Source: Chitinophagaceae bacterium
GTDB lineage: Bacteria > Bacteroidota > Bacteroidia > Chitinophagales > Chitinophagaceae
Direction of reading: 5' to 3'
Assembly (NCBI GenBank): GCA_947381435.1
Contig: CANCVE010000033.1
Span: forward strand, 1-38,997
DNA: 38,997 nt
The translations under genes and the position numbers were made by a program. This document shows positions 180 through 33,235 of this stretch, one piece after another (the stretch's first letter is position 1; each line of letters begins with the position of its first letter). A model generated the notes under the pieces. That model was not told the DNA's origin and did no database searches. It worked only from the letters and a program-made list of their open reading frames with translations.

Positions 180-305
180 CTGTTTTTCGATATAGATCGC
201 CTGTTATTGACTTCGTATAATCTGTTATTGACTTTGTATCATCTGTTTTAGACTTTGAATCAACTGTTTATCACTTCGTATCGTCTGTTTGTGACTTTGA
301 ATCGT
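180..305. repeat. Tandem array, 21-bp period (array A)
   Basis: Six units start at 180, 201, 222, 243, 264 and 285, and a seventh partial unit starts at 306. The spacing is exactly 21 bp with no indels. Each unit opens with CTGTT. Positions 9-19 of the unit are close to GACTTTGTATC and the remaining positions drift. The array abuts the 3' end of the decayed IS630 transposase. Neither strand carries a convincing reading frame through it. Its sequence differs from the other 21-bp arrays in this window. Confidence 0.85.
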
Positions 306-308
306 CTG

Positions 309-1250
309 TTAATGTTTATTCATCAAGAATGGATGTTGTTTACCACGAATGGTGAGCCATGATGCCGACTTTGGGATATGATGAAACTCAAACCTGTCCG
401 CCAGAGACTTCGCCTCATCTGCAGGCAGGTGTTCATAGAATGAACTTGTATTATGTGTATTCAAATTATTCTGTACCATCTTAATTTTAATGGCATCGGG
501 ATAATTCTCTGCTATCACCTGCATGAACTGTGTATATTCTTTTCTCGTTCTTTGTGCATATAACATTGCTATCCTTTTACCTTTCAATGGTTCTATTGAA
601 GGCAACAAGCAGAAATAACCATTCTTTTCATAACTGTAATGCTCCTTGGCAACCTTGCCTGTCTGAGCTGGGAGGGGGCTTCCGTGTCGCCAATCAGGAA
701 ACAAGGCCTCTCATCAAAACACACAACAGGGTAGGCAGCTTTATAAGGTTTTGCATAAACATCCAACACGTCTTCCATCTTTGACATAAAGGCGGCATCC
801 ACCTTTGATATGCACCAACTCACCTTTAAATGCGGCTTGATGTAGTTTTTTAAGTATATCTACCACGCAACTATGTGAAATGGTATAACAACAATTCAGC
901 ACCACAATCTTGTCTGCCAATAGCCTGAGACTCAATCTGGCAAACCCTTCCGGTGATTTGCTACACGCCAAAGCAGTAATCTTTGCACGCTGTGTGCCCT
1001 ATATCATCGCTGGGCCACCTTGCTGCTTCATGTCATAAAGTTAGCCCAAGCCGCTATTCTTGTATTTGGCTATCAAACCTGAAAAGGTAGGATAACTTAA
1101 TCCTACCAGTGACTTCGCATTACCTACGTAAAGCTCTTATCAAGTTCTAACATGACTATACCCTTTTGGACACCTTACTAAGTAAATCTAATCTCTTGTG
1201 TAAGGTTAATAATTCTTCCCTGTCAATGGCACTCTAACTACCCCTTGGAC
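309..1250 (-). pseudogene. Decayed IS630-family transposase
   Basis: Fragments in different frames, read on the minus strand, line up in the order of an IS630 DDE transposase. An N-terminal HTH-like part includes KSLVGLSYPTFSGLIAKYK (around 1050-1110). It is followed by ACSKSPEGFARLSLRLLADK (around 910-970), then a frameshift near 820-850, then KMEDVLDVYAKPY and VVCFDERP (around 690-780), another shift, and IEPLKGKRIAML to NLNTHNTSSFYEHLPADEA (around 410-600). Internal stops interrupt the N-terminal part. The usual VMDNLNTH catalytic aspartate reads as asparagine, and the C-terminal SWLN-x-E region is lost, so the gene is dead. No clear terminal inverted repeats were identified. The family assignment rests on remembered IS630 motifs. 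Confidence 0.8.
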
Positions 1251-1351
1251 GTATCGTAATTTCGTTTGTTATATAAATGATATTTTTCCAATTTATTTAA
1301 TTTACATTGTAATAATAACAATAGAAGTTGCCAATCAATCTATATATATGT

Positions 1352-1392
1352 AAAATGCTTAACAGAACATAACATGTTCTATTAAGCATTTT
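1352..1392 (-). terminator. Intrinsic terminator after response-regulator gene
   Basis: AAAATGCTTAA (1352-1362) and AGAACA (1364-1369) pair with TGTTCT (1375-1380) and TTAAGCATTTT (1382-1392), with one internal mismatch and a 5-nt loop. The stem ends in A on one side and T on the other, so it could act in both directions. It lies about 75 bp past the stop of the AraC-type response regulator and probably ends that transcript. Confidence 0.75.
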
Positions 1393-1466
1393 TATAACCG
1401 TCAATAATTGGAGTAGCTACTACAAGACAGAAATAGAGGTATAGATTTTAAACCCGACTATTAATT

Positions 1467-2222
1467 CTACTTTGTTTTGGAAGGGGTATGACCAAACTGA
1501 TCTTTGTAGCACTTAGAAAAATAGGATAATGAGTTAAAACCAAGAGACGTAGCTATCTCCTTCATTGGTAACCCCCTCTCACTCAATATCAAAACACGTG
1601 CTTTTTCAAGTTTGCGTTTCAAAATATAATTAGCAGCGGTTACACCCAATTTGCTTTTGAGTATCCTGTTTAATGTGCTATGACTTATGTTTAGCTCTTC
1701 AGAAATTTCTACTATATTTATCTCTTTAGCCTCATTTAAACTTCTATCAGAAATTTTATTGAGTTGCTCGATAATACGAGAAGCTCTAGAATTTGATATT
1801 TCGAATGGAATCTCACGTTCTATTACCGCACGTTCACGGTTCTTTTCGCTGATGAAAAGGAGGTTTTTAATTTTAAAAACAAGATTCTTTAGCTGAAATG
1901 GCTTAACTAGATAATCGTTTGCCCCCAAGCGTAAACCATCTTCGATAATATCGTTTGACGACATTGATGAGATAAGAATTACGGGTATATGAGCCAAATC
2001 TTCATTGCGTTTAAGGGTTTGCAAGAAATCGAGACCATAATCGTTTCCCGAAAGCATGATATCTAATAGTATTATATCGGGTTGGAAAGACTTACACGTT
2101 TCAATACCCTTACTTGTTTCAACCAAATTTTGCACTTCAAATTCTGGTTTTAGGAGTCTATTAATAATTTCCACAAATCCAACGGAATCTTCAATTAATA
2201 ATACTTTTTTCTTGTCGTCCAT
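1467..2222 (-). CDS. Response regulator with AraC-type DNA-binding domain
   Basis: This 251-aa protein has an N-terminal receiver domain (about residues 6-122). The acidic pair is E11/D12, the phospho-acceptor is D54 in DIILLDIML, S85/S86 sits at the switch position and K107 lies in YLVKPF. A linker leads to a C-terminal AraC/XylS helix-turn-helix (about 150-250), with ISHSTLNRILKSKLG as the first HTH and GLPMKEIATSLGFNSLSYF as the second. It is therefore a phosphorylation-controlled transcription factor. It lies on the same strand as, and downstream of, a receiver-only regulator gene. A divergent histidine kinase gene next door is the obvious partner candidate, although pairing is inferred only from position. 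The target genes are unknown. Confidence 0.9.
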   Translation of the reverse strand: MDDKKKVLLIEDSVGFVEIINRLLKPEFEVQNLVETSKGIETCKSFQPDIILLDIMLSGNDYGLDFLQTLKRNEDLAHIPVILISSMSSNDIIEDGLRLGANDYLVKPFQLKNLVFKIKNLLFISEKNRERAVIEREIPFEISNSRASRIIEQLNKISDRSLNEAKEINIVEISEELNISHSTLNRILKSKLGVTAANYILKRKLEKARVLILSERGLPMKEIATSLGFNSLSYFSKCYKDQFGHTPSKTK

Positions 2223-2280
2223 TTTCTTAAAAATTTAATTTTGTCAAGCGCTCTTCAGCAATTTTAGTTGATCTGAAATA

Positions 2281-2298
2281 AGTGTCAAAAGTGACACT
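2281..2298. promoter_or_regulatory. Inverted repeat, possible operator or terminator
   Basis: AGTGTCA and TGACACT are perfect 7-bp arms separated by 4 bp. The site lies 59 bp upstream of the AraC-type regulator start and 75 bp downstream of the preceding regulator's stop. Arm length and spacing suit a dimeric regulator site. The weak T-rich run after it on the minus strand would also allow a poor terminator. Confidence 0.4.
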
Positions 2299-2373
2299 CG
2301 TAAAAAGTAAAAATAAAGTATTTTATGTACCTTTTTTGTAGAATTTTGTTTAAATAATTAAAATAATTACAAA

Positions 2374-3009
2374 TTAAGTTTTATTTTTCAAATCACTATC
2401 ATATCCTTCTAATATAATATCAAGTTTACTAACTACAGTTTTGACCATTTCGAGAAGTCTCTTGTTATTTTTATCAAAATGAGATTGGTCTAGCTGATTA
2501 ATTAATTCATTTAACGACCTTAAAGTAGCCGTAAAGTGATGAGATGTGCTTATGATTTCATCATGCTCTAACATATTAACCTTTAATTCATTAAAATGTT
2601 TGTCTATGAGCGTATCTACTTCATTTTCTATTTCTTTCTTTCTATTTAATTGCGCATACATTATTGACAATAAATCACTTCTACTTATGGACTTTGGCAA
2701 ATATTCATCTGCACCAAGTGACATCCCTCTACGAAGCTCTTCTTGTGTAGAGAGTGATGTAAGAAATAAAAAGGGGACATTTGCTGCACAAGGCAAGCCT
2801 TTAAATGCTTCATAAAATTGATACCCATTCATTATAGGCATACAAACATCGCTAATTACAATATGGGGCATGTTTTCGGAAACAACTTGCATAGCATCCC
2901 TTCCGTTTAAAGAGTGCACAACTTCAAAATTGTCGTACTCAATCATTCTTTTTACAACAGAAGCAAAATTGGGTTCGTCTTCCACAAGCAAGACCTTATG
3001 TTTAAGCAT
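2374..3009 (-). CDS. Response regulator, receiver plus helical C-terminal domain
   Basis: This 211-aa protein has a receiver domain (about residues 4-118), with acidic residues D11/E12, phospho-acceptor D54 in VISDVCMP, T84 and K106. No DNA-binding domain follows. Residues 120-205 are predicted helical. They contain STSHHFTATLRSLNELINQL, which resembles a kinase DHp first helix (SHE-F-TPL pattern) but has H158 in place of Glu and T in place of Pro. It could be a phosphorelay intermediate or a dimerisation helix; this is inference. The start lies 208 bp from the divergent three-PAS kinase, and the AraC-type regulator gene lies downstream on the same strand. Confidence 0.85.
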   Translation of the reverse strand: MLKHKVLLVEDEPNFASVVKRMIEYDNFEVVHSLNGRDAMQVVSENMPHIVISDVCMPIMNGYQFYEAFKGLPCAANVPFLFLTSLSTQEELRRGMSLGADEYLPKSISRSDLLSIMYAQLNRKKEIENEVDTLIDKHFNELKVNMLEHDEIISTSHHFTATLRSLNELINQLDQSHFDKNNKRLLEMVKTVVSKLDIILEGYDSDLKNKT

Positions 3010-3217
3010 GGAGACGAAAATATTATAATTTATAGATAATAAAATCCTTTGAATTTCATTTACAACAGATTGACGATTATATGATATTAAGTATATTTAA
3101 GGTGCGCTAGTTTTGCGAAATACTGTTTTGTCATATTTCATTAGAAATAATAATATTTCCTTAATTAGTTTATATGATTTAGAATATTTTCAGTAAATAT
3201 TGTAGTAAAGTAAATAC

Positions 3218-5125
3218 ATGAATAACCCAGAAGATATAATCAAAGCATACGAGCAAAAAATTTTAATCCTTGAGGAGGAACTTGTAATGAGCGACATTTA
3301 TGAGCGCGTATTACTTTCTTCTCACCGTTCAGTTGCAGTAATTGGATTAGATTTTAAAATAATCTGGATTAATAAAACAGCAGAAAAAATGTTTGGCTAT
3401 GAACTTTTTGAATTGAAGGGGAAAAAAGTTTCAGAAACACTTTTTGGAGAAGAAACCGATATAAGCAAAGTTCCGGAAGCACTAGAAAATGCAATAAAAG
3501 GCCATGTTAGCGTATATGAACACATTCTTTACAAAAGAGAGAAAACTAAAGTTTGGGTCAGGGTACACATGCATCCAATGTATGACAGAAATAATCAAAT
3601 AGATAAGATTTGTATTTATGGTACTGATATAACACAAGAAAAGGCTTATCAAAAACAGATTACAGAAAGTGAAAATAGATTTAAAGAATTATTAGAACAT
3701 ACATCAGACTTAATATATACCATAGACATATCTGGAAACATTATTAGCACCAACGCAGCTTGGGAAAGATTTACAGGTTATAGTATTGATGAAACTTTAC
3801 ATAAACACAACAGTGTTTTTCTACACCCAAAAGATGTTGATAAACTTAAATTGGCTAGTGAGGATATTATTTCTGGAAAGAGTTATTCTTTTAACAAAGA
3901 AATCAGGTGCTATACCAAAAATCATGAAATTGTATGGCTAAACACAACATGCTACCCGTACTATTCTGCTACGAAAGAAGTTATTGGTTTTAATGGAATA
4001 GCCAAAAACATAACTGAACAAAAGCGGAATCAATGCTACTACGAGTTGCTCTCAAAAAATGTAGGAGACCTTATTTGCTTGTTAAACAATGACTCAATCT
4101 ACAACTTTGTTTCTCCTTCGATTAAAGAAATTGCTGGCTACGAACCTGATGAACTTATTGATAAATACTCATTTACCTTTTATCATCCAGATGATTTACG
4201 AAAAGCAATTAATTACAGGGAGCAAGTTTTAAAAAATAGCAATTCACAACTAGAAAGTATCACACTTAGATTCAGAAAAAAGAATGGCACATACACATGG
4301 TTGGAAATTACTGCCAAATACTTTTTTGATGATTTCACTGACGATTATAGAACTATAATATCTGCCAAAGTTGCTGATATAAGAAAAATTGAAGAGGAGA
4401 AATTAAATGCCAAACTGGAAGAAGAGAAAAGACTGAATAGAATTAAATCTGGCTTTGTTGATTTTGTATCACATGAGTTCAAAACACCATTATCAATCAT
4501 TAAAGGATTGTGTGAGTTGGTAAACATGAGCATTGATGATAAACAGATTGATATTGAACAATTAAGGAAGGATATAAAAGGTATAGATTTTGAAACAAGG
4601 GGATTGATTGATTTGATAGAAGATGTACTAATTATTGAAAAAATAGAAAATGGCAAACTTTCCTTACAGCCTAGACTGGTTAACATCGACACAATTATAT
4701 CAAGTGTAAACGACAGACTTTCAACTAAATTAAACAATAATAGAAAAGCTGCCATAGAAATAAATGGTCCGCCAGTGCAGATAGAGGGTGACCCAAAATA
4801 TCTTGAAGTAGTTTATAAGAATTTACTTTCAAATGCTTACAAATATTCGGATGGTCGTCCTTCTCCTATTGTAAAGATTGATTTCAGAGATTATGAAGTG
4901 CTAGTTACAGTGAAAGATTTTGGGATAGGCATTCCTGAAAAAAGCAAAGCCTATTTATTTACTAGTTTTTTTAGAGCAGACAATGTAACCCAAATTGAGG
5001 GGACTGGACTAGGACTAAGTATTGTAAAGAAGTTTGTAGAGTTACATAATGGCAGCGTATCCTGCAAAAGTGAATTGGGAATAGGAACAGAAATGATAGT
5101 ACGATTGCCTACCAAAATGGTATGA
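3218..5125 (+). CDS. Soluble PAS-PAS-PAS sensor histidine kinase
   Basis: This 635-aa protein has no signal peptide or membrane segment, so it should sense a cytoplasmic signal. There is an N-terminal coil (1-28), then three PAS/PAC modules at about 30-140, 152-268 and 275-392; the second and third carry the FTGYS and IAGYEP motifs. A coiled coil (390-412) leads to HisKA with H419 in DFVSHEFKTPL. The ATPase domain shows the N-box NLLSNAYKYS (about 535-544), G1 DFGIGIP (567-573), the F-box FTSFFRA and G2 GTGLGLSI (595-602). All residues needed for autophosphorylation are visible. It is divergent from the two response regulators, its likely partners by position. Confidence 0.92.
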   Translation: MNNPEDIIKAYEQKILILEEELVMSDIYERVLLSSHRSVAVIGLDFKIIWINKTAEKMFGYELFELKGKKVSETLFGEETDISKVPEALENAIKGHVSVYEHILYKREKTKVWVRVHMHPMYDRNNQIDKICIYGTDITQEKAYQKQITESENRFKELLEHTSDLIYTIDISGNIISTNAAWERFTGYSIDETLHKHNSVFLHPKDVDKLKLASEDIISGKSYSFNKEIRCYTKNHEIVWLNTTCYPYYSATKEVIGFNGIAKNITEQKRNQCYYELLSKNVGDLICLLNNDSIYNFVSPSIKEIAGYEPDELIDKYSFTFYHPDDLRKAINYREQVLKNSNSQLESITLRFRKKNGTYTWLEITAKYFFDDFTDDYRTIISAKVADIRKIEEEKLNAKLEEEKRLNRIKSGFVDFVSHEFKTPLSIIKGLCELVNMSIDDKQIDIEQLRKDIKGIDFETRGLIDLIEDVLIIEKIENGKLSLQPRLVNIDTIISSVNDRLSTKLNNNRKAAIEINGPPVQIEGDPKYLEVVYKNLLSNAYKYSDGRPSPIVKIDFRDYEVLVTVKDFGIGIPEKSKAYLFTSFFRADNVTQIEGTGLGLSIVKKFVELHNGSVSCKSELGIGTEMIVRLPTKMV

Positions 5126-19950: not shown

Positions 19951-20016
19951 CATTTATCTAAAATATTTTTTATTTTTTTTCATTTTATCCGGTTTATTGG
20001 TACTCAGGGGTATTTT

Positions 20017-20142
20017 TACCACAAGGAACACAACGGTTTTAACTAAGAACACAAGGATTTTATTCTAGTATTTTTGCAGAACTACCAACCTTGGATTCTA
20101 TACCTTAGTGTTCTTTGTTTTTTATTAGTGTGCTTTGTGGTA
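20017..20142. repeat. 126-bp inverted-repeat element (ACCACAAAG family)
   Basis: The outer ends TACCACAAGGAACACA (20017-20032) and TGTGCTTTGTGGTA (20129-20142) are nearly complementary. Inner CTAAGAACACAAGG and CCTTAGTGTTCTTTG also pair. It fills most of the 311-bp gap between the divergent rpsJ and GH5 genes. It resembles the larger element at 34406-34591 in its AAC-ACAAAG-type words. No coding frame is visible. It is probably a non-autonomous repeat of the kind common in Bacteroidota intergenic DNA. Confidence 0.6.
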
Positions 20143-20201
20143 AAGCGCCTGAGCAGTAACTCTAGTTTTAACCCACCAGTAATAGATACTGCTTTATTAT
20201 T

Positions 20202-21236
20202 ATGCTTATGAATAAATTATACTGTCTAGTTATCATTTCGTCTGTATTACTATCTGCCTGTGTTAGTAAACCTATCAGTAAAATTAGTCAATCAAGAATA
20301 GGCATTGTACTATGTGGGGCAGAATTTGGCGAAAAACATCTGCCTGGTAAATTAAACACTGACTACATATATCCTAACAAGGTAGAACTGGCCTATTTTG
20401 CGGCAAAGGGTTTTAATCCTATTACACTTCCTTTTAAATGGGAAAGAGTGCAACGAACTATTGGTGGAGAACTTGACTCGGCTGAGATAGAAAGAATGAG
20501 AACCTTTATTACTGATTGTGAAAGTTTGAACCTTAAAGTTATATTGACCTTGCAAAACTTTGCAGCCTATAGTGCAAACGGAACTCCATACGAATTGAAT
20601 AGCCGCCATTTATCTATTGAAAATTACAAAGTCTTATGGTACAAATTAGCCACTAGTTTTAAATCGAATAATAATATATATGGCTATGATATTATGAATG
20701 AGCCTCGAGGCATATTTGGTAAGAGCTGGCAAAGGGCTGCACAACATGCTATTGATGGTATAAGAGAAGCTGATACCTTACCCTATATAATAGTAGATGG
20801 TGAGAATAGTTCATTTTCGGCGGATTGGAGTGCTGAAAATAATGGTCTTAGAAAATTGAAGGATAAGAACGATAAAATAATCTATGATGCTCACTGCTAC
20901 TTTGATTATGACCACTCTGGTAGGTATAATAATCATCATGAAGGAAGAATAACGAATGATATAGGTATAGAAAGACTAAAGCCGTTTATAAAATGGCTGA
21001 ATAAACACCATAAGAAGGGTATGATTGGCGAATTTGGCGTTCCGGCTGATAAGAAATGGATGGAGGTAATGGATCACTTTCTTACTTATGCTACGAAATA
21101 TGGGGTTGATGTATCGTATTGGGCAGCTGGACCTTGGTGGAATGATTATCCCCTATCTGTAGAACCTGCAAATGGAATAGATAAACCCCAAATGAAGGTT
21201 TTGGAGAAGTATTTGCCTGTTAGGAAGAAGTTTTAG
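20202..21236 (+). CDS. Glycoside hydrolase family 5-like lipoprotein
   Basis: This 344-aa protein has a type II signal peptide with lipobox LLSAC (C20), so it should be a lipidated envelope protein. The (beta/alpha)8 domain matches the cellulase-like GH5 clan. The acid/base is E167 in GYDIMNEPRG, the nucleophile is E277 in GMIGEFGVP, and DAHCYFDYD precedes it. Such enzymes cleave beta-1,4-linked glucans or mannans; the substrate cannot be read from the sequence. The start may be the ATG at 20202 or 20208. It stands alone between repeats, with no polysaccharide-utilisation genes nearby. A heptamer array begins 2 bp after its stop. Confidence 0.85.
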   Translation: MLMNKLYCLVIISSVLLSACVSKPISKISQSRIGIVLCGAEFGEKHLPGKLNTDYIYPNKVELAYFAAKGFNPITLPFKWERVQRTIGGELDSAEIERMRTFITDCESLNLKVILTLQNFAAYSANGTPYELNSRHLSIENYKVLWYKLATSFKSNNNIYGYDIMNEPRGIFGKSWQRAAQHAIDGIREADTLPYIIVDGENSSFSADWSAENNGLRKLKDKNDKIIYDAHCYFDYDHSGRYNNHHEGRITNDIGIERLKPFIKWLNKHHKKGMIGEFGVPADKKWMEVMDHFLTYATKYGVDVSYWAAGPWWNDYPLSVEPANGIDKPQMKVLEKYLPVRKKF

Positions 21237-21238
21237 GC

Positions 21239-21294
21239 GTTAGTGGTTAGGTGTTAGTGGTTAGGTATTAGGTGTTAGGTGTTAGTTATTAGGT
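21239..21294. repeat. Heptamer tandem array after GH5 stop
   Basis: Eight exact 7-bp units begin 2 bp after the GH5 stop codon, alternating forms such as GTTAGTG and GTTAGGT. Every unit holds TAG at its positions 3-5. Because 7 is not a multiple of 3, the TAG triplets fall in all three forward frames. Confidence 0.85.
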
Positions 21295-21343
21295 TTTATG
21301 TTATACTCATTAAAGTTTAAATGCTGCTTTACATAGTTTTGTA

Positions 21344-23211: not shown

Positions 23212-23266
23212 AACCCTTATAGGGGCGTATAAAACCCTTATAGGGGCTTGGAGCCCTATAAGGGTT
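23212..23266. repeat. REP half-copy plus full REP overlapping hsdS 3' end
   Basis: A half copy (AACCCTTATAGGGGC from 23212) precedes a full palindrome at 23233-23266 with arms AACCCTTATAGGG and CCCTATAAGGGTT around GCTTGGAGC. The stop codon (TAG) of the hsdM-hsdS fusion lies inside the full copy, so the repeat supplies the last two codons (Pro-Leu) and the stop of that gene. Confidence 0.85.
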
Positions 23267-25781
23267 GTGTGGAACCATCCCCCCACACTTTTGCTATCCT
23301 ATCTTTTATCTTCTGTTCAAAAATTGCTATTAGTTGTTTGTTGGCATTTACCAAGGATTGCTCTTTTTCTATTTGGGCAACTATTTGGGTTTGGATTTCT
23401 ATTGGAGGAAGAGGCATTAATAAAGAGTTTAAGCTTCTGATAGGAAGTTGTGGTTGTGCCGCACCTGAAATAACACGCTTAAACTGTGCTTGACAATTCT
23501 CAGATTGAAAGAAATAGAAAAGATAATTAGAAAGGAGAACAGAATTGTCCGGTCTGAATATAAGCATACCTGAGTTGATTCTTATGTGATCGTAAGAAAC
23601 TGTATCGTTGTAATAGGCAGTATTACCTACTGTACCTCTTGTGGTTAATAAAACATCTTCTCTTTTTAATTTACCTTTTCTCAGTAATTCATCCTTCTCT
23701 TTGGTAATAAACATTAAATCATCAAAGCGAAATCCGTTTTCCCTAACATTCTTTGTACTGAGAAATAAGCAATATCCTTCTGAAGAGAAATCATCACCAT
23801 TTGGATAGTTACTTCCTCTATCTCCGTCAATAATTTCAAATGGTGCCTCCACCAACTCCACCATTTTCCACTCGGAATCAATATCTATTTTGGGTTTATA
23901 GTTTTCTACAACTGCTTTGGCACCATCTATTATTTTTTGATACCCCTCTATTTCCGCAACTATTTCTTCTTGAATGGATAGGGGCGGTAGGGGGATTTCT
24001 CTTTCTTCAATTCCTCCTTTTGTAATATGCATCATTGCAATACCACGTCCACCTTCAATTTTAATAGCTTCTGTTTCCCTATTTAAAACATGAAAAAGGA
24101 AATGTTTATTAATAATGTCCTCATCTGGGATCATCTTCCAAATGTGGTAATGGTAAATGCACTTCTCACCAACCCATATTTTAGGACCAAAAGAAGCAGA
24201 CCAAGCATATAATAAATCCCCTGCTATACAATACTTATCCTCCTCCAATTCTAAATCAGAATAGTACCAACCTCTATTTGAAAAGAAATTTCCAACTCTT
24301 AAAACTGGGTATTTACCAGAATCTAACAGCTCCTCTTGTTTATAAGCTTTACCGTTAATTACTTTACAAACATCTCCTAACTTTACAGATGGATAAACGT
24401 TCGAGACTACGCCTGTAGTTTTATATCTCTCTCCACTCAAATTATAATCTCCATTCTTTGCAAGTTCTGTTTTATTAACAGCGTGGGCAATCATGGTTTC
24501 TTTTACTTCTCCCGTAAGGGCAAAATGATGTATTAATTCAATGGCTTCTTCTAGTTGGCTGCCTTTTACGGCATTGCGTTGTGCGCCTAGGTTGTAGCCG
24601 TCGTTATCTATCTTCACAAATAGTACTTCGTTCCTCAGTTTTGCCACTTGTTTGTCCATCAACAGCATAGAGGTCTTTACGCCACTATAGGGATTGAAAA
24701 CTCCCGCAGGTAAACTTACCACAGCATACAAACTAGTGTCTACCAGCATTTTGCGTAGGTCTTTGTAGGCAGAACCACTCTGAAAGATTATGCCTTCGGG
24801 TACTATTATGCCTGCCCTGCCTTTTGGGTTTAGGTGTTCGGCTATATAATCTACAAACAACACTTCACTACGGTTACTGCCAATGCTGAACTTTTTGTGT
24901 GGACGAATGCCTCCCTTAGGACTCATAAACGGTGGATTGGCAAGTACCACATCGTAGGTTTCGTTCCAGCGTTCTTCGCTGCTGAGGGTATCATATTCGT
25001 AGATGTGTGGGGCGGCAAAGCCATGCAGGTATAGGTTTACCAAACTTAACCGCACCATATCGGGCGATATATCGTAACCTACAAAATTTTTGATGAGCCT
25101 CTTGCGTTCATCGGGGGTAAGGTTATCATTGTTTTTTTCTTTGATGTGCTTGAAGGCAGAAATGAGGAAGCCCGCCGTTCCGCAGGCAGGGTCTAGTATG
25201 GTATCATTTTTTGATGGGTTTACTATTGCCACCAAAAAATCTATGATATGCCTCGGTGTGCGAAATTGCCCGGCATCGCCTTGTGACCCCATTACAGAAA
25301 GCAGGTACTCGAAGGCATCGCCTAGCTTTTCGCTATGGGTATATACGAACTCACTGATGGTTTTCAGAAACATCTTTAGTGTTTCTGGGTCGCGATAAGG
25401 CAGGTAGGCATTTTTGAAAATATCACGGAACAGTTGTGGGATATTGGGGTTTTTATCCATCCCTACTATTGCTTCGGAATACAAGGTTAGCATCTCCGTT
25501 GCCGAAACTTTAGGATTGATCAGGTTATCCCAAGCGTACTTTTTAAATTCTATTACTTTATCCTTGGTGCGGTCGTTAGGAAATTCAGGGTCGGGGATGG
25601 TATAGTCTGAAAAGAATTTGGCTTGTCCGCCCAATTCAACGGCTTCTTTGTCCATATCGTCCATAAACTTATAAATTAAGCCAATGGTTATTTGTTCAAT
25701 CTGCGCTTTAGGGTCGGGCAATTTTCCTACTAGTATATCGCGGCAATCATCTATTCTTTTCTTCGTTTGCGTATCTAACAT
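23256..25781 (-). CDS. Type I RM methylase and specificity subunit fusion (HsdM-HsdS)
   Basis: This 841-aa protein joins two normally separate subunits. Residues 1-455 are the N6-adenine methylase: a helical N-terminal domain, then motif I ILDPACGTAGFL (about 195-206) and motif IV ANPPF (281-285). Residues 463-841 are a specificity subunit with two target-recognition regions (about 465-625 and 655-825), each ending in a helical spacer (PPLSIQEEIVAEIEGYQ and PPIEIQTQIVAQIEKEQ). No frameshift separates the parts. It lies downstream of hsdR with a REP cluster between. The recognition sequence cannot be read. The last residues come from a REP element. Confidence 0.93.
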   Translation of the reverse strand: MLDTQTKKRIDDCRDILVGKLPDPKAQIEQITIGLIYKFMDDMDKEAVELGGQAKFFSDYTIPDPEFPNDRTKDKVIEFKKYAWDNLINPKVSATEMLTLYSEAIVGMDKNPNIPQLFRDIFKNAYLPYRDPETLKMFLKTISEFVYTHSEKLGDAFEYLLSVMGSQGDAGQFRTPRHIIDFLVAIVNPSKNDTILDPACGTAGFLISAFKHIKEKNNDNLTPDERKRLIKNFVGYDISPDMVRLSLVNLYLHGFAAPHIYEYDTLSSEERWNETYDVVLANPPFMSPKGGIRPHKKFSIGSNRSEVLFVDYIAEHLNPKGRAGIIVPEGIIFQSGSAYKDLRKMLVDTSLYAVVSLPAGVFNPYSGVKTSMLLMDKQVAKLRNEVLFVKIDNDGYNLGAQRNAVKGSQLEEAIELIHHFALTGEVKETMIAHAVNKTELAKNGDYNLSGERYKTTGVVSNVYPSVKLGDVCKVINGKAYKQEELLDSGKYPVLRVGNFFSNRGWYYSDLELEEDKYCIAGDLLYAWSASFGPKIWVGEKCIYHYHIWKMIPDEDIINKHFLFHVLNRETEAIKIEGGRGIAMMHITKGGIEEREIPLPPLSIQEEIVAEIEGYQKIIDGAKAVVENYKPKIDIDSEWKMVELVEAPFEIIDGDRGSNYPNGDDFSSEGYCLFLSTKNVRENGFRFDDLMFITKEKDELLRKGKLKREDVLLTTRGTVGNTAYYNDTVSYDHIRINSGMLIFRPDNSVLLSNYLFYFFQSENCQAQFKRVISGAAQPQLPIRSLNSLLMPLPPIEIQTQIVAQIEKEQSLVNANKQLIAIFEQKIKDRIAKVWGDGSTQPL

Positions 25782-25808
25782 AATGTGTTTATCTATTTTA
25801 AATTGCCA

Positions 25809-26010
25809 AACCCTATAAGGGGCTTGAAGCCCTTATAGGGTTAATGCGAAACGAAACCACTGAACCAAACCCTATAAGGAACTCGCAACCAAAACCCTAT
25901 AAGGGCTTGAAGCCCCTTATAGGGTTAAAGCGAAGCCCTTATAGGAGTTAATGCGAAACGCCTCCCCTTGAACAAAACCACTATAAGGGCTTGAAGCCCC
26001 TTATAGGGTT
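25809..26010. repeat. REP cluster between hsdR and hsdM-hsdS
   Basis: Three full palindromes (25809-25842, 25893-25926, 25977-26010) and two half copies (about 25868-25880 and 25935-25946) lie in this gap. All share CCCTATAAGG/CCTTATAGGG arms and the GCTTGAAGC core. Short spacers contain repeated AATGCGAAACG words, so the unit was probably duplicated together with flanking DNA. Nothing coding is seen in the gap. Confidence 0.85.
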
Positions 26011-26029
26011 AACGTAGCGGTACCAAATA

Positions 26030-26049
26030 AGACGGATTAACATCCGTCT
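26030..26049 (-). terminator. Palindrome directly after hsdR stop
   Basis: AGACGGAT (26030-26037) and ATCCGTCT (26042-26049) form an 8-bp stem that begins at the base after the hsdR stop codon. On the minus strand it is followed by TATTTGG, a poor T tract. It belongs to the AGACG...CGTCT family seen at 9847, 28768 and 37972. It may act as a terminator or be only a repeat. Confidence 0.5.
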
Positions 26050-28578
26050 CTACGCAGCAAACCTATCCAGATTAATGTAATCTTTTATATACACAGGTAT
26101 TACCTCTCTATATTTTGGGGCTACCTGCCTAAACTCTGCAATGGTAAGGGTTGGATTGGTTTGCAGGGCATTAAAGTCTTTGTTGGCAATAATTTGGCGA
26201 ATATCCTGATCTACAATATATGCCTTAAAAAAATGTTTCAGAACACGCAAATTCACCTCTTCATCGGGAGGATAGATGGAAATGAACTTATCAAATTCCT
26301 CATCCAACAATTCATCTTTGGATTTGAACTTGGGGATGATGCCAAATATCTTCTCCACCATTTCTCGTATGGAAATCTTCCGGTCGATTAGAGCAGCTTT
26401 ACGCAGTTTTTCTAAATTGAAATATTCATCCGACTTATCAAAAATTTCCTGTTGTATGTGGGTGATGATATGTTCCCAATTTCCTAGTTCCACATTTTTC
26501 TTTATGATGTCATCCATGCTAATGCGGTCTTCAAACTTTTTAAACAATTCCCTATCAATGCGCATCCCTTCTGCCCCTACTTGTCTTTCGTTTACTGTTA
26601 GTAGAGGGTCGGGGATGGTACTTGTATATTTATCAATATCTACCTCGCTACTTCCACCTTTTGCACTGGCTTTTTTGGGGTCGGTTAGCTTCAGCTTCTC
26701 ATCATAATTAAACTTCTCTTCAAAATATTCGCAATTGGCAAAGAAGTCGAATAGTTTAAAATGTTCCTTTTCGTGTTGTATCAGTTCTTCCTCGTTCAGC
26801 TCGTTTTTATGTTTAAACTCAAACGTATGCTTTCTGGTTCCTCTTCCTTTTATCTGTACAAAATCGGATGGGCTAAATATTGGGCGCATCATACAGATAT
26901 TCAATAAGTCGGGGCAATCATAGCCTGTAGTCATCATGCCCACCGTAACACAAACCCTTGTCTTGCTGGATTTATACCCTTCTAACCAATTGGTTTTACC
27001 GCTAAGGTTATTATTGGCAAAGTTGATGGTCATTTGTTGTGCATCCCCCACCTGCGATGTTACCTGAACGGCAAAGTCTGAGTTGTATTTATTAGGATAC
27101 CTCAGTTCGGCTATTTCGTTTAATAGTTCTGTTATTTTTCTTGCATGATTCTGGCTAACCGCAAAAATTATGGTCTTTCCTATTTCGTGGGTTATGGGAT
27201 CGAGCAGGGCTTTATCCAAGAAAGTTTGACAGAAAATTCTGTTTGTCTTCTCAGAGAAGAATTTCTTTTCAAAATCACGGGAAACAAAGGTTTCCGTTTC
27301 TTCTCCTTTTGTAGTAGGAACAACCACCGCATAACCCTTATCGGAAAGAAGCTGGGTGGTAATTTCAGTGCGGGCATCGATGGTAAATGGATTTTTTAGA
27401 AAGCCATCCTGAACACCATCTAGCAATGAATACCTAAATGTAGGCTCTCCACCTTCGCACCCAAAAGTGGCGTAGGTATCTCGCAGCATCCTTCTTTCAA
27501 TCTCTCTTGGGTCGTTGGTGTTTTCTTTGTCTGGGTCAACACCTTTCAGATAATCTTTCGGGGTAGCCGTTAAGCCTAATTTGTAACCAGAAAAATATTC
27601 GAAGACCGCCCTCGCGTTACCAGAAATGGAACGATGGGATTCATCAGAGATAATTAAATCAAAATCAGTAGGAGAAAATTCGTACCGATACTTATCGTAG
27701 TATAATAAGGATTGGATAGTGGTTACCACAATGTCTGCCTTACGCCAATCGCTTTTACGTTCCTTATAGATATAGGTAGTGTAATCGGGCTTTAGATAAT
27801 CCTTAAAAGCTTTCCATGCTTGGTCTTCCAGTTCTAGTCTATCAACCAAGAACAATACTCTTCTTGCATTTTGTGTTCGCAGAAATAATCGGATAACAGC
27901 CGCTGAAGTCAACGTTTTTCCTGTGCCCGTTGCCATTTCGAACAAGAAACGGTCTTTGCCTGCTGCAACTGCTTTCTGCAGTTCTTGAATGGCCTTTAAT
28001 TGATAATGCCGCAGAAATCGAAGTCCGTTAGTCCAAATAAAGTCTTTACTAGTTTCTGTGCTTCCATTCCATCCTGGTTTTTGCGCATAATCAGGCATTT
28101 GAACCGTAACGATATAATCGGAGGAAACGGATTCATTAACCAATGAAACTCTATCAGGATTAAAAGCTTTGATAGCACCAATTTCGTCGGGAGAAGGGAA
28201 TTTGAAAATAGGTTTCGGATTCCCCTTGGCTGTATCCCAAAAGAAATGAACAATACCATTAGAAAGGATTACATATTGCGCGCCGACAGTTTTGGCATAT
28301 TTTCTTGCCTGTTCCTTGGCTACCAAAGGGTGAAGACTTTCCTTTTTGGCTTCCAATACACAGATGGGTTTATTGTTGCTATCGACGAGTAAAAAGTCTA
28401 GAGAACCGTGTTTTGTTTTTTCGTAGTCATTGCCCCAATCATCAATTTCTGATTGGGTGATTTTTACATGATTTTCTAGAAGAATGTTTGCCTTACCTTT
28501 TTCATCATCAAAGAATCGCCATCCTGCTTCGGTAAGCAGTTGGTTTATTTTAATTCTTGCATGAGCTTCGTTCTTCAT
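26050..28578 (-). CDS. hsdR: Type I restriction endonuclease subunit R (HsdR, EcoEI-like)
   Basis: This 842-aa motor and nuclease subunit has an N-terminal PD-(D/E)XK domain with D61 (SLDFLLVD) and E76-x-K78 (VLEAKKES). A superfamily 2 helicase follows: Walker A ATGTGKT (216-222), motif II SDESH (about 311-315), LGLTATPKDY and motif VI KGRGTRKH. The C-terminal part (about 690-842) matches the EcoEI-type R C-terminal domain that docks to the methylase. All catalytic motifs are intact. It is first in the locus, with the methylase-specificity fusion downstream on the same strand. The 876 bp upstream is non-coding repeat DNA. Confidence 0.93.
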   Translation of the reverse strand: MKNEAHARIKINQLLTEAGWRFFDDEKGKANILLENHVKITQSEIDDWGNDYEKTKHGSLDFLLVDSNNKPICVLEAKKESLHPLVAKEQARKYAKTVGAQYVILSNGIVHFFWDTAKGNPKPIFKFPSPDEIGAIKAFNPDRVSLVNESVSSDYIVTVQMPDYAQKPGWNGSTETSKDFIWTNGLRFLRHYQLKAIQELQKAVAAGKDRFLFEMATGTGKTLTSAAVIRLFLRTQNARRVLFLVDRLELEDQAWKAFKDYLKPDYTTYIYKERKSDWRKADIVVTTIQSLLYYDKYRYEFSPTDFDLIISDESHRSISGNARAVFEYFSGYKLGLTATPKDYLKGVDPDKENTNDPREIERRMLRDTYATFGCEGGEPTFRYSLLDGVQDGFLKNPFTIDARTEITTQLLSDKGYAVVVPTTKGEETETFVSRDFEKKFFSEKTNRIFCQTFLDKALLDPITHEIGKTIIFAVSQNHARKITELLNEIAELRYPNKYNSDFAVQVTSQVGDAQQMTINFANNNLSGKTNWLEGYKSSKTRVCVTVGMMTTGYDCPDLLNICMMRPIFSPSDFVQIKGRGTRKHTFEFKHKNELNEEELIQHEKEHFKLFDFFANCEYFEEKFNYDEKLKLTDPKKASAKGGSSEVDIDKYTSTIPDPLLTVNERQVGAEGMRIDRELFKKFEDRISMDDIIKKNVELGNWEHIITHIQQEIFDKSDEYFNLEKLRKAALIDRKISIREMVEKIFGIIPKFKSKDELLDEEFDKFISIYPPDEEVNLRVLKHFFKAYIVDQDIRQIIANKDFNALQTNPTLTIAEFRQVAPKYREVIPVYIKDYINLDRFAA

Positions 28579-28787: not shown

Positions 28788-29105
28788 TTACACCTGACTG
28801 GTAACAATAAACACAGATTACTCAATAGGAATCTACTATAATTAACACTACTGCAAACACAAGCTTTTACTTGATTTATTTGGCTTCAACGTAATATATT
28901 ATGTCTTCAGTCAAAAAAATCTGCTCAACAATTTGTCTTTATTGTGTTTGAAACTTTCGTGACGAGCCTATTTAGTAATTTGGGGTTTAAAAAAGGTGAC
29001 TGGGCTGAGTAAGATGCATATTTTAAGTAAAACTTGGCGTCTTTTGAGTAAAATATTTCTTTGTTAACCTAAATAATATTTCGTCTTAACCTTTTTATGC
29101 CTTAC

Positions 29106-29399
29106 TGTAACGGATTTACAAGTTATTGTAACCGATTTACACAACCTAGCATTCTATTTATATAAAAGAGTAATGCATTTATAGCAAACAGTAGTGGAAT
29201 TATATTAAAAAGTAACCGATTTACACCTCTCAGTAGCCGAATTATACCTAAAAGTAGCGGAGTAATACTAAAAAGTATCGCTGTTATACATCCTAGTAAC
29301 CCATTAATACTAAACAGTTGGACTTCTATACCACTTAGTAGCCAACTTATACCTTTCTGTAGATCAATTACAGTAAAATGTTGACCAATTACTATAAAC
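29106..29399. repeat. Tandem array, 21-bp period (array B, 14 units)
   Basis: Fourteen units start at 29106 and every 21 bp to 29379, without a single indel. Weaker units extend to about 29043 on the left and 29420 on the right. Typical units open with AGTARCCGA and continue TTATACC, while the rest drifts strongly. On the minus strand a 107-codon frame (29446-29123) reads through it as heptads of the form LL-x-x-I-x-x. A plus-strand frame is also open over most of it, so openness follows from the period and does not prove a gene. Confidence 0.85.
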
Positions 29400-29454
29400 C
29401 GTTTTGGTAATATTTTGGTTTTTGCGATTTTAACACTGTGGTACAATCAATAAT

Positions 29455-30147
29455 TTACATAGAAGAATCCTTACATGCTGTCAGAAAGGCTTTCCTAATT
29501 GATAAAGAAAAAGATTCATCATTACTTATTCGTTCTGGATGCCACTGAACTAGTAATAGCCAAGTCTTTCCTTCGGGTTGCTTGTATTCGAGGGCTTCTA
29601 CAATATTATTATCGGAAAAGGCGGTGGCACGAAGCTCCTCTCCTATTGTATCGGCAGATTGATGATGGGCAGAGTTTACTGTTCCTATATGTTGGTTTGT
29701 AATGGCGCTAATAAGGCTTCCCGAGATAATTGATATGTCATGGCGTTGGTCTTGCCCCTCTATTTTACCGTGTTTATTACTGCCTATAATGGTAGGAATA
29801 TCTACTATCAATGTGCCTCCAAAGTATACATTGGCAATCTGTAACCCACGACAAATGCCTAAAATAGGTTTACCCATACTGATGGCGGCGGCTATTACAC
29901 TCATCTCGAATGCATCTCTTTCTTCATCAATCTGATCTGCATCTAATACATCTAAATAGTTAGGTTTATTGTACAAGGCAGGATGTACATCGTGGCCTCC
30001 AGTGAGGATGATACCATCGCAAGAAGCAACTAAATCAAGATTATCCAATTTATAAGATAGACATTGAATAGTAATGTTGGTGCCTGCATTGGCTATCCAT
30101 TGCCTGTAGTCTTCATATTTCTTTGAGTCTGTAATACCTATTGTCAT
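29455..30147 (-). CDS. Class I glutamine amidotransferase-like hydrolase (peptidase C26)
   Basis: This 230-aa cytoplasmic enzyme resembles gamma-glutamyl-gamma-aminobutyrate hydrolases such as PuuD. The catalytic triad is visible: C99 in ILGICRGLQIANVYFGG, H203 and E205 in VQWHPE. The oxyanion strand GIILTGGHDVHPALY (about 45-59) and the SAHHQS segment (159-164) fit the family. It probably hydrolyses a gamma-glutamyl amide; the substrate is unknown and no putrescine genes are nearby. It stands alone, followed by array B and preceded by an AACCGCAAAG-type repeat fragment near 30197. Confidence 0.85.
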   Translation of the reverse strand: MTIGITDSKKYEDYRQWIANAGTNITIQCLSYKLDNLDLVASCDGIILTGGHDVHPALYNKPNYLDVLDADQIDEERDAFEMSVIAAAISMGKPILGICRGLQIANVYFGGTLIVDIPTIIGSNKHGKIEGQDQRHDISIISGSLISAITNQHIGTVNSAHHQSADTIGEELRATAFSDNNIVEALEYKQPEGKTWLLLVQWHPERISNDESFSLSIRKAFLTACKDSSM

Positions 30148-30297
30148 GCTGCAATTTATTGATTATATTGATTTGAATGCTTGGAATGAATTATTAACCG
30201 CAAAGTAGGCTAAGTATTTACGCAAAGAAGGGAGGACAAAAAGAAGCGATGGTGTATGGAGAAGAAAATTATTTGACTTCTACCCTACACCATCGCC

Positions 30298-30332
30298 TAA
30301 CCTAATAACTAACCACCAAAAACTAATAATTA
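30298..30332. repeat. Heptamer array at beta-barrel gene 3' end
   Basis: Five 7-bp units (for example ATAACTA and AAAACTA) run from 30298 to 30332 and overlap the stop codon of the adjacent minus-strand gene. Read in the sense direction of that gene the units are of the TTAGTTA type, with TAG triplets 7 bp apart at several positions. The middle unit is degenerate. Confidence 0.6.
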
Positions 30333-32780
30333 GTTTCCTCCTTTTATCCTTTTGCTTTCACTTTCTAATCCTGACTCTCTTTGGCGGGAGGCTTTTACTT
30401 GGCTATTACCAAATCTGTAGGTAAAGTTTAAACGTAGAGTTTGGCTTTCCCAACTTCCACCAGCATCTATTTTAAGTCCGCCAAAGTTGCTGTTTGCTTT
30501 CCATGGTGCGGTAAAGAAAATGTCTGTAGCACTTAACTTTAGTGAAGCCTTTTTATCCCAGAATTGTTTTTGTATTCCCAAATCTAAACCTCCTTGTGGC
30601 TTTGTCATCCAAGTTGCTCCCCAAACGCTTGGCCCATTATACCAACCACTCATTTCGGCGGAATAATCATGCCCTAGCGTAAAGGTATTTTGCAAATAAG
30701 CCCCATACATTGGTATTTCGGTGTGCACACTCTTTTGGTTTATATGCCCATCAAATATTTGATAGTTGTACCATAGGTTGGCATAGCCATTCCACCATTT
30801 TTTAATTGGCAACGGAGATCCTATGCTTAAGGTCATCATTTGTTGTATGGCCAAGTTTTGCTGCTGCACATAGGTTGCATTGCCAATGGTATCGGTAATC
30901 TGTGTAGCGTAATTAGTTACATAACTATAGCCAACAGTGGTATTTAAAAAACCCATTAAGGTGTGCGTTAACTCTAAGTTATCGGTATACTGTGGCTTCA
31001 AGAAAGCATTACCTTTTTCGTACGTTAACTCATCCAATTTGTTTTCGAATGGATTCAAATCTTGGTAAGAAGGTCTGTCTATTCTGCGGCTATATGTAAG
31101 GTTTAGCGAATGTTTCTTATTTACATTCCATGTTAGGGCTGCACTCGGAAACAAGTTTAGGTAATTGGTATCTACCACATTATCAGACTGCACTACCCCG
31201 TCTGCCCTATTTAGCTTTCCAATACTATGTGTTCTTTCTAAACGTAAACCTGTTTGAATACTCCATTTCGCACTCAATTGACGATTGTAATTAATGTAAG
31301 CGGCAGCGACTTCTTCGGTGTAAGAGAAACTATTACTCTTACTTGGGTCTTTAGTTTTTATGTTAGTTGTTGGATTAATCTTGAAGAAATCGAAGGTATT
31401 GTCAGTTTTTACATTAGAATATTTAGCACCAAAGCCAAGCTTACCTTTAAAGAAGTTCTTTTCGGCATCTACTTTAGCTGTATATATGTCAATATTAGTT
31501 GGCGTACTATTTCCATAAATATAAGTACTAAGTAAGCTATTGTCTTTTCTGTAATAATTATTAGGTTGAGTACTTGCGCCTGTTCCTTTGAAAGAGCCAT
31601 AATCAGCATCGGCATTTACTTCTGTACCACTAGTATCTGCAAAACGGTAGTTTAAGTTTATGTCCGTGTTTTCTCTGTGACCGGGTACATTATTGGAGGC
31701 AATTAGTTTTTTTACAAAGCTATCTACCGATGCTTTACCTGCGTAGATGATAGTGTTTGTAGTACTGGTAAACCTAGTTTTATCGTATCCATACCTTGCC
31801 ATTACACCAAGTGTATTTTTACTATCAATAAAATAATCGGCACCAGCTTTAATATTTACACTGGTATTATCGTTTGCATTGATGCTATGCTGATCGTAAA
31901 TGCTGTCTTTTTGGGTTCTGTAAAGATCTAGCGTGTTATTATGTTTACCAAAGCTACCACCCACATTTCCAAAGAGGTTAACCTTTTTATCACGATAATT
32001 CAAGTTTACAGAAGCATTTCCTTTTGGGGTAATCCCTTGCACAAAACCAATACTAGTAGAGCCATTAGTACCAAATTTCTTGTTCTTTTTTAGCCTGATA
32101 TTGATGATACCTGCATTGCCACTTGCATCATATTTTGCACTTGGGTTACTAATCATCTCGATAGCTTCAATGTCATTACTGCTGATGCTGCGCAGATAAG
32201 CCGCCAAATCTTTAGTATCTAGCTCCATCTTTTTGCCATCTACATATATTTTAACGCCATTCTTGCCTTTCATGCTGATGTTGTCGTTATTATCAACCTG
32301 AATGCCTGGGCTTTTTTGTAATAATTCCATACCATCGCTACCAGTTGCATTAATACTGCTTTCCACATTAAACACCATCTTATCGGCTTTTACCTCAATC
32401 ATTGGTTTGCGGGTACTCGTTACGGTTACTTCTTCCAGTTTGCCAGTTGCTACAACTAATGAAACTATGGTTGCCTGATAATTATCTTGTGCCGTTAAAT
32501 CGAACACAGGAGAATATTTTTTAGCAAATCCCAATGCATTATAACTCAATAAAAACTTACCAAGTGCATTGGTGGTTATTTCGAAATGACCATCGTTTTC
32601 AGATACACCTACTTTTATTAGGCTACTATCTTTTGCCTTTAATAGAGATACAGACACGCCTGCCAATCCCTTGCCTTTGTTATCTTGGACGATTCCCGTT
32701 ACTGTCTTTTTTGATTGCGCAAAACCTTGTGTTACCAGCAAGGATAATAGCATGGATGTAAAGTAAAAATACTTTTTCAT
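30330..32780 (-). CDS. TonB-dependent receptor-like outer-membrane beta-barrel protein
   Basis: This 816-aa protein has a Sec signal peptide (residues 1-21, ending QGFAQ). Residues 25-110 form a carboxypeptidase-D-like regulatory domain (KKTVTGIVQDNKGKGLAGVS). A plug-like region includes SINATGSDGMELLQKSPGIQ, VKIYVDGKKMEL and SAKYDASGNAGIINIRLKKN. The rest is the beta-barrel, closing with LRLNFTYRFGN and a short charged tail. This matches the Bacteroidota outer-membrane-protein beta-barrel family related to TonB receptors. A TonB box is not obvious and no SusD partner is adjacent, so the ligand is unknown. Upstream lie two repeat arrays. Confidence 0.88.
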   Translation of the reverse strand: MKKYFYFTSMLLSLLVTQGFAQSKKTVTGIVQDNKGKGLAGVSVSLLKAKDSSLIKVGVSENDGHFEITTNALGKFLLSYNALGFAKKYSPVFDLTAQDNYQATIVSLVVATGKLEEVTVTSTRKPMIEVKADKMVFNVESSINATGSDGMELLQKSPGIQVDNNDNISMKGKNGVKIYVDGKKMELDTKDLAAYLRSISSNDIEAIEMISNPSAKYDASGNAGIINIRLKKNKKFGTNGSTSIGFVQGITPKGNASVNLNYRDKKVNLFGNVGGSFGKHNNTLDLYRTQKDSIYDQHSINANDNTSVNIKAGADYFIDSKNTLGVMARYGYDKTRFTSTTNTIIYAGKASVDSFVKKLIASNNVPGHRENTDINLNYRFADTSGTEVNADADYGSFKGTGASTQPNNYYRKDNSLLSTYIYGNSTPTNIDIYTAKVDAEKNFFKGKLGFGAKYSNVKTDNTFDFFKINPTTNIKTKDPSKSNSFSYTEEVAAAYINYNRQLSAKWSIQTGLRLERTHSIGKLNRADGVVQSDNVVDTNYLNLFPSAALTWNVNKKHSLNLTYSRRIDRPSYQDLNPFENKLDELTYEKGNAFLKPQYTDNLELTHTLMGFLNTTVGYSYVTNYATQITDTIGNATYVQQQNLAIQQMMTLSIGSPLPIKKWWNGYANLWYNYQIFDGHINQKSVHTEIPMYGAYLQNTFTLGHDYSAEMSGWYNGPSVWGATWMTKPQGGLDLGIQKQFWDKKASLKLSATDIFFTAPWKANSNFGGLKIDAGGSWESQTLRLNFTYRFGNSQVKASRQRESGLESESKRIKGGN

Positions 32781-32880
32781 GAGCTTTAAATTTTGTGTTG
32801 TTGTAATTAATTTGAGTGCAAATTGCCTACTTTAAGCAAAAGAATGAAGATATAGTGGTTTAATGGCAAAATAGAATGTT

Positions 32881-32950
32881 TAATGATTAATGTTTAGGGA
32901 TTAGTGGTGAGTGTTAAGTTGTTAGCGGTTAGATGTTAGTGAGTAGCGAC
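32881..32950. repeat. Heptamer tandem array, ten units
   Basis: Ten exact 7-bp units fill 32881-32950, with forms such as TAATGAT, TAGTGGT and TAGCGGT. Eight of ten begin with TAA or TAG. It lies about 100 bp upstream of the beta-barrel gene start, in a 545-bp non-coding stretch (32781-33325) that also holds array C and the tsaD-proximal heptamers. Nothing else is visible there. Confidence 0.75.
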
Positions 32951-33046
32951 AAGAGATTTCGTTGGTTACAACTTACTGTGCTTTCTATCAGTTTTAAAGC
33001 AATTAAATATTGCAGATTTGGGTCATTTACGCAGCTAGGAAGAAGA

Positions 33047-33235
33047 TTCCCTCACTTGGTTCTAACATTTCCTCACTTGGTTTTAAGATTTCCTCACTTG
33101 GTTCTAACATTTCCTCACTTGGTTTTAAGATTCCCTTGCTTGGTTCTAACATTCCCTTGCTTGGTTTCAACATTCCCTTGCTTGGTTCTATCATTTCCTC
33201 ACTTGGTTCTAACATTTCCTTGCTTGGTTTTATCA
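33047..33235. repeat. Tandem array, 21-bp period (array C, 9 units)
   Basis: Nine units start at 33047 and every 21 bp, and a degenerate tenth starts at 33236. The unit core is CCTCACTTGGTT or CCTTGCTTGGTT. The 3' part is mostly CTAACA, but units 2 and 4 read TTAAGA, so units 1-4 form two 42-bp higher-order repeats. Less drift than arrays A and B suggests a younger array. Long frames are open on both strands because the period is a multiple of three. No spacer-repeat structure, so not CRISPR. Confidence 0.92.

Follow-up and report, generated by a model that had tools for sequence, protein, structure and literature searches.

Three Tandem Arrays with a Common Step

Why should tandem arrays that differ in consensus, and whose units have drifted, share one and the same step? 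The question is raised by contig C33 (38,997 nucleotides, the whole stretch that was analysed and hereafter the window) of a draft Chitinophagaceae MAG of 4,877,482 bp (4.88 Mb) in 231 contigs. The initial annotation described three arrays of different consensus, each with an exact 21-bp step free of indels, and proposed that this spacing, equal to two turns of B-DNA and also to seven codons, marks a genome-wide class. The three arrays proved to be real and to lie at about the places described (Table 1). For each of them 21 is the best period among 10-40, and the mean pairwise column identities (0.708 for array 1 at 180-305, 0.535 for array 2 at 29101-29415, and 0.849 for array 3 at 33043-33231) were reached by 0 of 2000 Markov shuffles. 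The consensus does differ between the three arrays, and 0 indels were counted inside them.

Table 1. Arrays of the window and features next to them
Feature	Position	Strand	Description
Left flank of array 1, repeated segment	50..144		Recurs next to the array that begins contig C5 (L038)
Array 1	180..313		Period 21, unit CTGTTATTGACTTTGTATCAT; 5.2 good copies at 201-310 plus a weak unit from 180
Dispersed repeat, left neighbour of array 2	28808..28992		About 185 bp; matches in own genome and in G005
Array 2	29101..29415		Period 21, about 15 strongly drifted units; flanking genes: peptidase C26 and HsdR-like
TonB-type outer-membrane beta-barrel (OMP) gene	30330..32780	-	Start faces array 3, 263 bp
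Array 3	33043..33242		9.5 copies of unit ATTCCCTCACTTGGTTCTAAC at period 21, with a higher order of 42 bp
Right edge of array 3	33232..33256		Palindrome by eye: last unit meets an inverted unit
tsaD	33326..34420	-	Stop faces array 3, 84 bp

Array 1 lies near the contig end and is strong only from position 201. Its family also occurs elsewhere in the same genome (G000, C164:7058-7275), and its left flank is 98% identical over 95 bp to the left flank of another array (L038). Array 2 is too decayed to appear in the list of our gapless detector; it is backed by the shuffle test, by pieces detected with TRF, and by the orthologous place in congener G005, which holds a strong 42/21-bp array (42-bp period, 8.4 copies). 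Its family recurs weakly at C39, and the dispersed repeat on its left has 10 further matches in the genome (74-79% identity), 8 of which are at least 140 bp long. At the right edge of array 3, the inverted match scores 10, under the cut of 12 that we used when searching flanks.

Other repeats, and a pair of neighbouring genes, are also found in the window. Arrays of 7-bp units lie at 21233-21298 (TTAGGTG-like) and 37232-37265 (AGTTATG, 4.9 copies). A MITE-like repeat at 20001-20144 has ends that are roughly inverted by eye (TTTACCACAAGG... ...CTTTGTGGTAAA), its left end possibly preceding 20001, where the query began; at least 34 copies (72-78% identity) are present in G005, 40 of 352 candidates having been scored. 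Finally, an N6-methylase with a fused type I specificity domain lies beside an HsdR/helicase-type gene at 23256-28578, as a type I-like restriction-modification pair.

A Genome-Wide Class of Repeats

Our sample of the genome covers 837,681 of its 4,877,482 bp (17%), namely C33 in full, an initial 20-kb piece of each of 39 long contigs, and part of C42, and may thus lean towards contig ends. Within it, gapless detection (score 30, at least 2.2 copies, so that weak and two-copy arrays are dropped) yielded 65 arrays, of which 52 have a period of 21 (31 arrays), 42 (9), 41 (5), 22 (3), 43 (2), 63 (1), or 64 (1). The other 13 have a period of 7 or 14 (eight arrays) or of 30, 58, 87 (twice), and 97 (five arrays), both 87-bp arrays falling within reading frames. 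None of the 65 has a period of 15-20, 23-29, or 31-40, and Markov shuffling of 21 of the 41 loci produced 0 arrays. The predicted genome-wide class is therefore borne out by 52 arrays in 838 kb, and the period search against shuffled DNA finds the expected peak at 21 in the 17% of the genome covered. An indel-tolerant run with TRF gave a similar picture, with 65 of 82 arrays in classes 20-22, 40-43, and 63, although the seven with a consensus of 20 are partly a TRF artefact.

The density amounts to about 62 arrays per Mb, or about 1% of the genome (about 200 bp times 62 per Mb), and extrapolation from the sample suggests roughly 300 such intergenic elements per genome. According to our crude longest-ORF caller, 50 of the 52 arrays are located outside ORFs. 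Their 21/22-bp units follow each other without spacers, and arrays have a median length of 196 bp when built of 21/22-bp units (about 8 copies) and of 198.5 bp when built of 41-43-bp units (about 4 copies). Either total length is also held or the assembly caps it; short-read assembly may limit array length, and the near-constant 196-198 bp is possibly in part technical. By far larger, a repeat with a 153-bp unit in 45 copies occupies L129 8903-15834.

An exact 21-bp step is thus found in the three arrays of the window, but does not define the class, which also includes periods of 22, 41, 42, 43, 63, and 64 bp. Of these, 22, 41, 43, and 64 bp (11 of the 52 arrays) fit helical turns and fit neither codons nor heptads, which argues for two helical turns as the natural unit, as the initial annotation had proposed, and against its other option, the seven-codon unit, which the location outside ORFs also disfavours. 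In addition, of 28 arrays with 41-43-bp units, about half lack a clear 21-bp sub-repeat, which means that descent from dimers is not the whole reason for this length. Pure helical phasing would also allow three-turn (31-32 bp) and five-turn (52-53 bp) periods, and none was seen among the 65 arrays; a unit size or footprint of about 21 bp therefore seems to be needed as well. Intrinsic curvature through phased A-tracts is not supported, as the units of 33 arrays show no 10.5-bp A/T rhythm (harmonic 1.00 vs 1.11 for the null).

The main period of 21 and the presence of heptad arrays in the same genome (8 of 65) would be expected if the units encoded seven-codon repeat peptides or derived from arrays of 7-bp heptads. 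Coding repeats are nevertheless excluded as the explanation of the class by its periods of 22, 41, 43, and 64 bp. An origin from heptads is not supported either, since 33 arrays with a 21-bp period match at lags 7 and 14 less often than expected. Moreover, heptad arrays sit elsewhere than the 21-bp class: for 6 of the 8 arrays of period 7 or 14, a facing stop codon lies no more than 15 bp away, and 4 of these arrays run into the gene end. Taken together, we consider a coding or heptad explanation to be highly improbable.

Position Relative to Genes

Array 2, which is below the cut-off of the gapless detector, was added by hand to the 52 arrays, and the resulting set of 53 is used hereafter. 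Gene context is incomplete for 8 of the 52, which lie at contig edges, and 44 of the 53 could be placed. Among gaps that leave 100 bp or more when the array is discounted, 19 of 74 divergent ones hold an array, as do 17 of 178 co-directional and 5 of 47 convergent ones (odds ratio 3.2, p=0.0014). From an array to the start facing it, the median distance is 183 bp.

Spacing and Sequence under Divergence

If spacing were more constrained than sequence, indels should be scarce relative to substitutions within arrays, and the step should outlast the letters in orthologues. Twelve congeners (G001 to G012) were available for comparison with the genome of the window (G000), whose closest named relatives, as found with the OMP gene, are Chitinophagaceae MAGs (best identity 86%). 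We counted 15 indel events for 1412 substitutions in the 53 arrays of the gapless set and 41 for 1340 in 65 TRF-detected arrays. In other non-coding DNA aligned with G005, the counts were 44 for 337 (70 HSPs, some overlapping or paralogous) and, in a stricter control of 12 non-overlapping HSPs, 30 for 250. Arrays thus show 0.011-0.031 indels per substitution vs 0.12-0.13 elsewhere (0.131, or 0.120 in the stricter control), the control counting differences between species and the array figure differences between units and consensus. The depletion is significant against the stricter control (Fisher p about 2e-14 and 2e-7). The gapless detector is prone to pass over indels, and tolerant detection gives a weaker depletion. 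The absence of indels initially described for the three arrays does not extend to the genome scale, where they are found in 4 of 53 arrays with gapless detection and in 23 of 65 with indel-tolerant detection.

Orthologous arrays provide the second line of evidence. In G005, the counterparts of arrays 2 and 3 are both on C114, that of array 2 being the 42/21-bp array described above. The counterpart of array 3 shows a unit of clearly different letters, repeated about 4.5 times (by eye) at the 21-bp step; its units look like the right edge of array 3, whose outermost unit resembles them. Two further sets of orthologous arrays (C20/G005:C24/G006:C74 and C10/G005:C1) have flanking proteins that are 67-97% identical. 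In C20/G005:C24 and C10/G005:C1, edges are conserved and inner units are homogenised differently, and in G006:C74, units are recognisable while flanks are not (all by eye). The step is kept between orthologous arrays of congeners, although persistence is not general, as G003 has no array at the place of array 3. Together, indel depletion and a step kept across replaced units support a spacing more constrained than sequence, and suggest that geometry rather than sequence is conserved.

These observations bear on the main rival explanation, a function-free amplification process. In this case, the arrays would be minisatellites, with units of about 21 bp made and homogenised by slippage, hairpin-assisted copying, or a rolling-circle step. 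Such a process would account for copy numbers that differ between orthologues (about 6 vs 8, and 9.5 vs about 4.5, by eye), and the BrickBuilt 23-nt repeats of Porphyromonas gingivalis are likewise described as expanding and contracting between strains (PMC4596501). Inverted units (score at least 12) beside arrays, present in 10 of 106 flanks vs 3 of 522 control flanks, also point to hairpin-related copying. Generation alone would leave the indel depletion unexplained, however, because indel variants should be homogenised like substitutions. Nor would it predict the bias to divergent gaps, or unit families that are recognisable across species where the adjoining intergenic DNA is unalignable by eye, as in G006. 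We thus regard function-free minisatellites as somewhat unlikely.

Symmetry within Units

Dyad symmetry was found in the units of 21 of the 53 arrays at p<=0.05, and of 13 at p<=0.01, in column permutations that do not keep dinucleotides. Furthermore, double changes that keep the dyad number 43 vs 21.4 expected. None of the three arrays of the window has a dyad (p = 0.72, 0.38, and 0.59).

Symmetric units could act in DNA, as dimeric sites, or in RNA, if transcription of the arrays gave 5' UTRs or small RNAs with small hairpins in a row. The latter would agree with the better folding of 29 of the 53 arrays than of column-permuted arrays (z < -2 on the better strand) and with an excess of G-U over A-C cells (34 vs 19) in dyad columns of the gene-sense strand; of 69 arrays examined, 32 have a dyad, and the cells were counted in the 18 of these that are co-directional. 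Yet gene-sense strands are not favoured in stability, being the more stable in 8 of 20 co-directional arrays (Wilcoxon p=0.45), and a folding excess without strand preference is what DNA dyads would give. The divergent location of the arrays also runs counter to a role in 5' UTRs or small RNAs, and no Rfam match was found in the window. RNA evidence being mixed, we read unit symmetry as a DNA-level property and consider an RNA-level function to be quite improbable.

Unit Families and Shared Flanks

No k-mer is common to all arrays, so that a single motif for the class was rejected; instead, there are many unit families, some of which recur. Family b (unit GATACCTCGGATGCGACAAAA) is found at 6 loci of the genome and has matches in G001, G003, G005, G006, and G010. 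Its neighbours (GH43 enzymes, a sulfatase, an ABC transporter, a sigma factor, HSP70) form no single regulon. Family g, that of array 3, has 3 loci in the genome (the others on C42 and C197) and matches in 6 of the 12 congeners, while family a has 5 loci and one in G007. In one G010 array (L222), one family passes into another in phase.

Recurrence could result from mobility, if arrays were the inner part of MITEs or of REP/BIME-like elements moved by a transposase. Some flank is shared with another array by 16 of 60 arrays, which implies that part of the set spread by copying. For example, the arrays of C8 and C31 have left flank, array, and a 71-bp tail in common at 91-99% identity, and those of C131 and C86 share 172 bp on the left (95%) and 106 bp on the right (90%). 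On the other hand, 44 of the 60 arrays share no flank at all, and neither terminal repeats nor target duplications were seen in the few array pairs viewed by eye. An association with REP-type Y1 transposases (RAYT) finds no support, since such genes are no more common in array carriers than in others (7 hits in the own genome, 0-7 in congeners, and 0-9 in others, among 39 genomes) and their counts are independent of arrays.

A further case of sharing is a 100-bp leader found at C3, C8, C23, C28, and C31. Immediately after it come arrays that belong to three unit families, two of them with a common TGCGACAAAA half. By eye, the arrays of C3, C23, and C31 are followed by the start of a related gene, which at C28 has an early stop and of which C8 retains only the first codons. 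As the leader precedes similar gene starts, gene duplication is the simpler reading there, C8 being by eye a cut-off copy. Overall, we consider a mobile-element origin of the class to be improbable. The C23 leader is itself split by about 1.6 kb of extra DNA (L120 15946-17511), and leader coordinates overlap by 10 bases across the insert, as a target duplication would.

A Putative Protein-Binding Lattice

The reading that we favour, if tentatively, is that the arrays are DNA-level lattices of putative tandem protein-binding sites, whose spacing would be selected while their sequence turns over. They fit the phased protein array suggested by the initial annotation, the binding protein being putative. 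An element would consist of about 200 bp of head-to-tail units, each spanning one double turn (21, rarely 22 bp) or two (41-43 bp). Units would serve as tandem sites on one helix face for DNA-binding proteins, often dimeric as dyad units suggest, which might bind cooperatively. Located upstream of genes and preferentially in divergent gaps, the lattice may modulate or insulate transcription, or else give order to the nucleoid. Inner units would be homogenised by unequal exchange or slippage, so that the unit sequence of a whole array could drift, and selection on spacing would purge units of other lengths. Points against this reading are the lack of dyads in the window's three arrays, of a motif shared by all arrays, of three- and five-turn periods, of a 10.5-bp A/T rhythm, and of a coherent regulon beside family b, as well as the apparent dispensability of the arrays and the spread of part of the set by copying.

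A stronger proposal, which we find unlikely but not implausible, is that the several hundred promoter-side arrays of a genome are geometry-coded cis-elements. The information they share would then be the 21-bp lattice and its near-fixed total of about 200 bp, not sequence. A putative reader protein, or protein family, would sense repetition and helical phase, so that a whole array could drift without losing function.

Non-coding sequence is usually judged by conservation of its letters, whereas this class seems to keep geometry and length instead; ordinary comparative methods would therefore miss it. Orthologous arrays with exchanged sequence offer a ready test of whether spacing or sequence carries function.

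Comparison with Known Repeats

Plasmid iterons are direct repeats of about 20-22 bp with a two-turn spacing, bound by proteins and differing in sequence between replicons. They are located at replication origins along with a Rep gene, whereas the present arrays lie beside many ordinary genes, and a Pfam scan of some of these neighbours found no Rep gene. The BIME/REP of E. coli are dispersed, protein-binding intergenic repeats as well, but consist of 35-40 bp palindromes at 3' ends instead of phased 21-bp direct arrays.

The closest known kind is provided by the 22-, 23-, and 41-nt tandem repeats of P. gingivalis, which also belongs to Bacteroidota. These repeats (BrickBuilt, PgRS/464) are intergenic head-to-tail arrays of imperfect 22-, 23-, or 41-nt units, located 49-591 nt from genes, with strain-variable copy number and predicted stem-loops (PMC4596501). 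The present arrays resemble them in being intergenic, in lacking spacers, and in having units close to 2 and 4 turns. However, BrickBuilt is a single 23-nt family with 19 copies in 2.35 Mb, described as a MITE with a leader, a tail, and IS5-type terminal repeats (PMC4596501). Here, by contrast, unit families are numerous, the density is higher (about 62 arrays per Mb), and the period is 21/42; units are replaced between orthologues, and the few pairs viewed by eye lack terminal repeats. The P. gingivalis repeats may follow the same geometric principle. The main text of that paper makes no use of the word "helical" (PMC4596501).

Two other systems are more distant. Heptamer repeats of the TAACTGA type occur in many intergenic sets per genome in Beggiatoaceae, Cyanobacteria, and some Bacteroidetes, but have a 7-bp unit of one sequence and lie mostly just upstream of start codons (PMC4679880). 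They are alike in forming many intergenic direct-repeat sets, also in Bacteroidetes, and differ in that the 21-bp arrays are not built of heptads. The tandem repeats of archaeal Borgs are, similarly, genome-wide, rapidly evolving, and often intergenic, but they are perfect and A-rich, have several unit lengths, and fall in ORFs in about half of the cases (PMC9879509). For Chitinophagaceae, we found no description of such arrays in the open-licence literature that was searched; the available part of one paper dealing with Chitinophagaceae, tandem repeats, and intergenic DNA (PMC9426551) does not describe them.

Distribution among Relatives

The class is present in five (G003, G005, G006, G007, and G011) of the six congeners sampled by stretches. 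In 100 kb of G012, no array with a period of 21, 22, or 41-43 was detected, and one 44-bp array has 2.3 copies. The arrays thus appear to be dispensable, as G003 lacks array 3 and G012 lacks the class in the sampled 100 kb. G012 does carry other short repeats, in which 9-bp units reach 44 copies and 7-bp units 55 (L115 3398-4253, L293 3364-3951).

Outside the genus, 353,407 bp from 20 genomes of other genera and families contained no array of the class and only three 7-bp arrays. The sister genera G022, G025, and G027, sampled over 400 kb, yielded a single 21-bp array, which falls within an alanine-rich open frame. Common across most of the genus, the class is rare or absent in our samples from outside; if a protein reads the arrays, they would form a lattice that regulates genes or organises the nucleoid and is typical of one bacterial genus. 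The class may nevertheless extend beyond the genus, as a record whose OMP is 68% identical (JAIXOJ010000170.1) carries a non-coding 21-bp array of 5.7 copies (L059 5770-5889).
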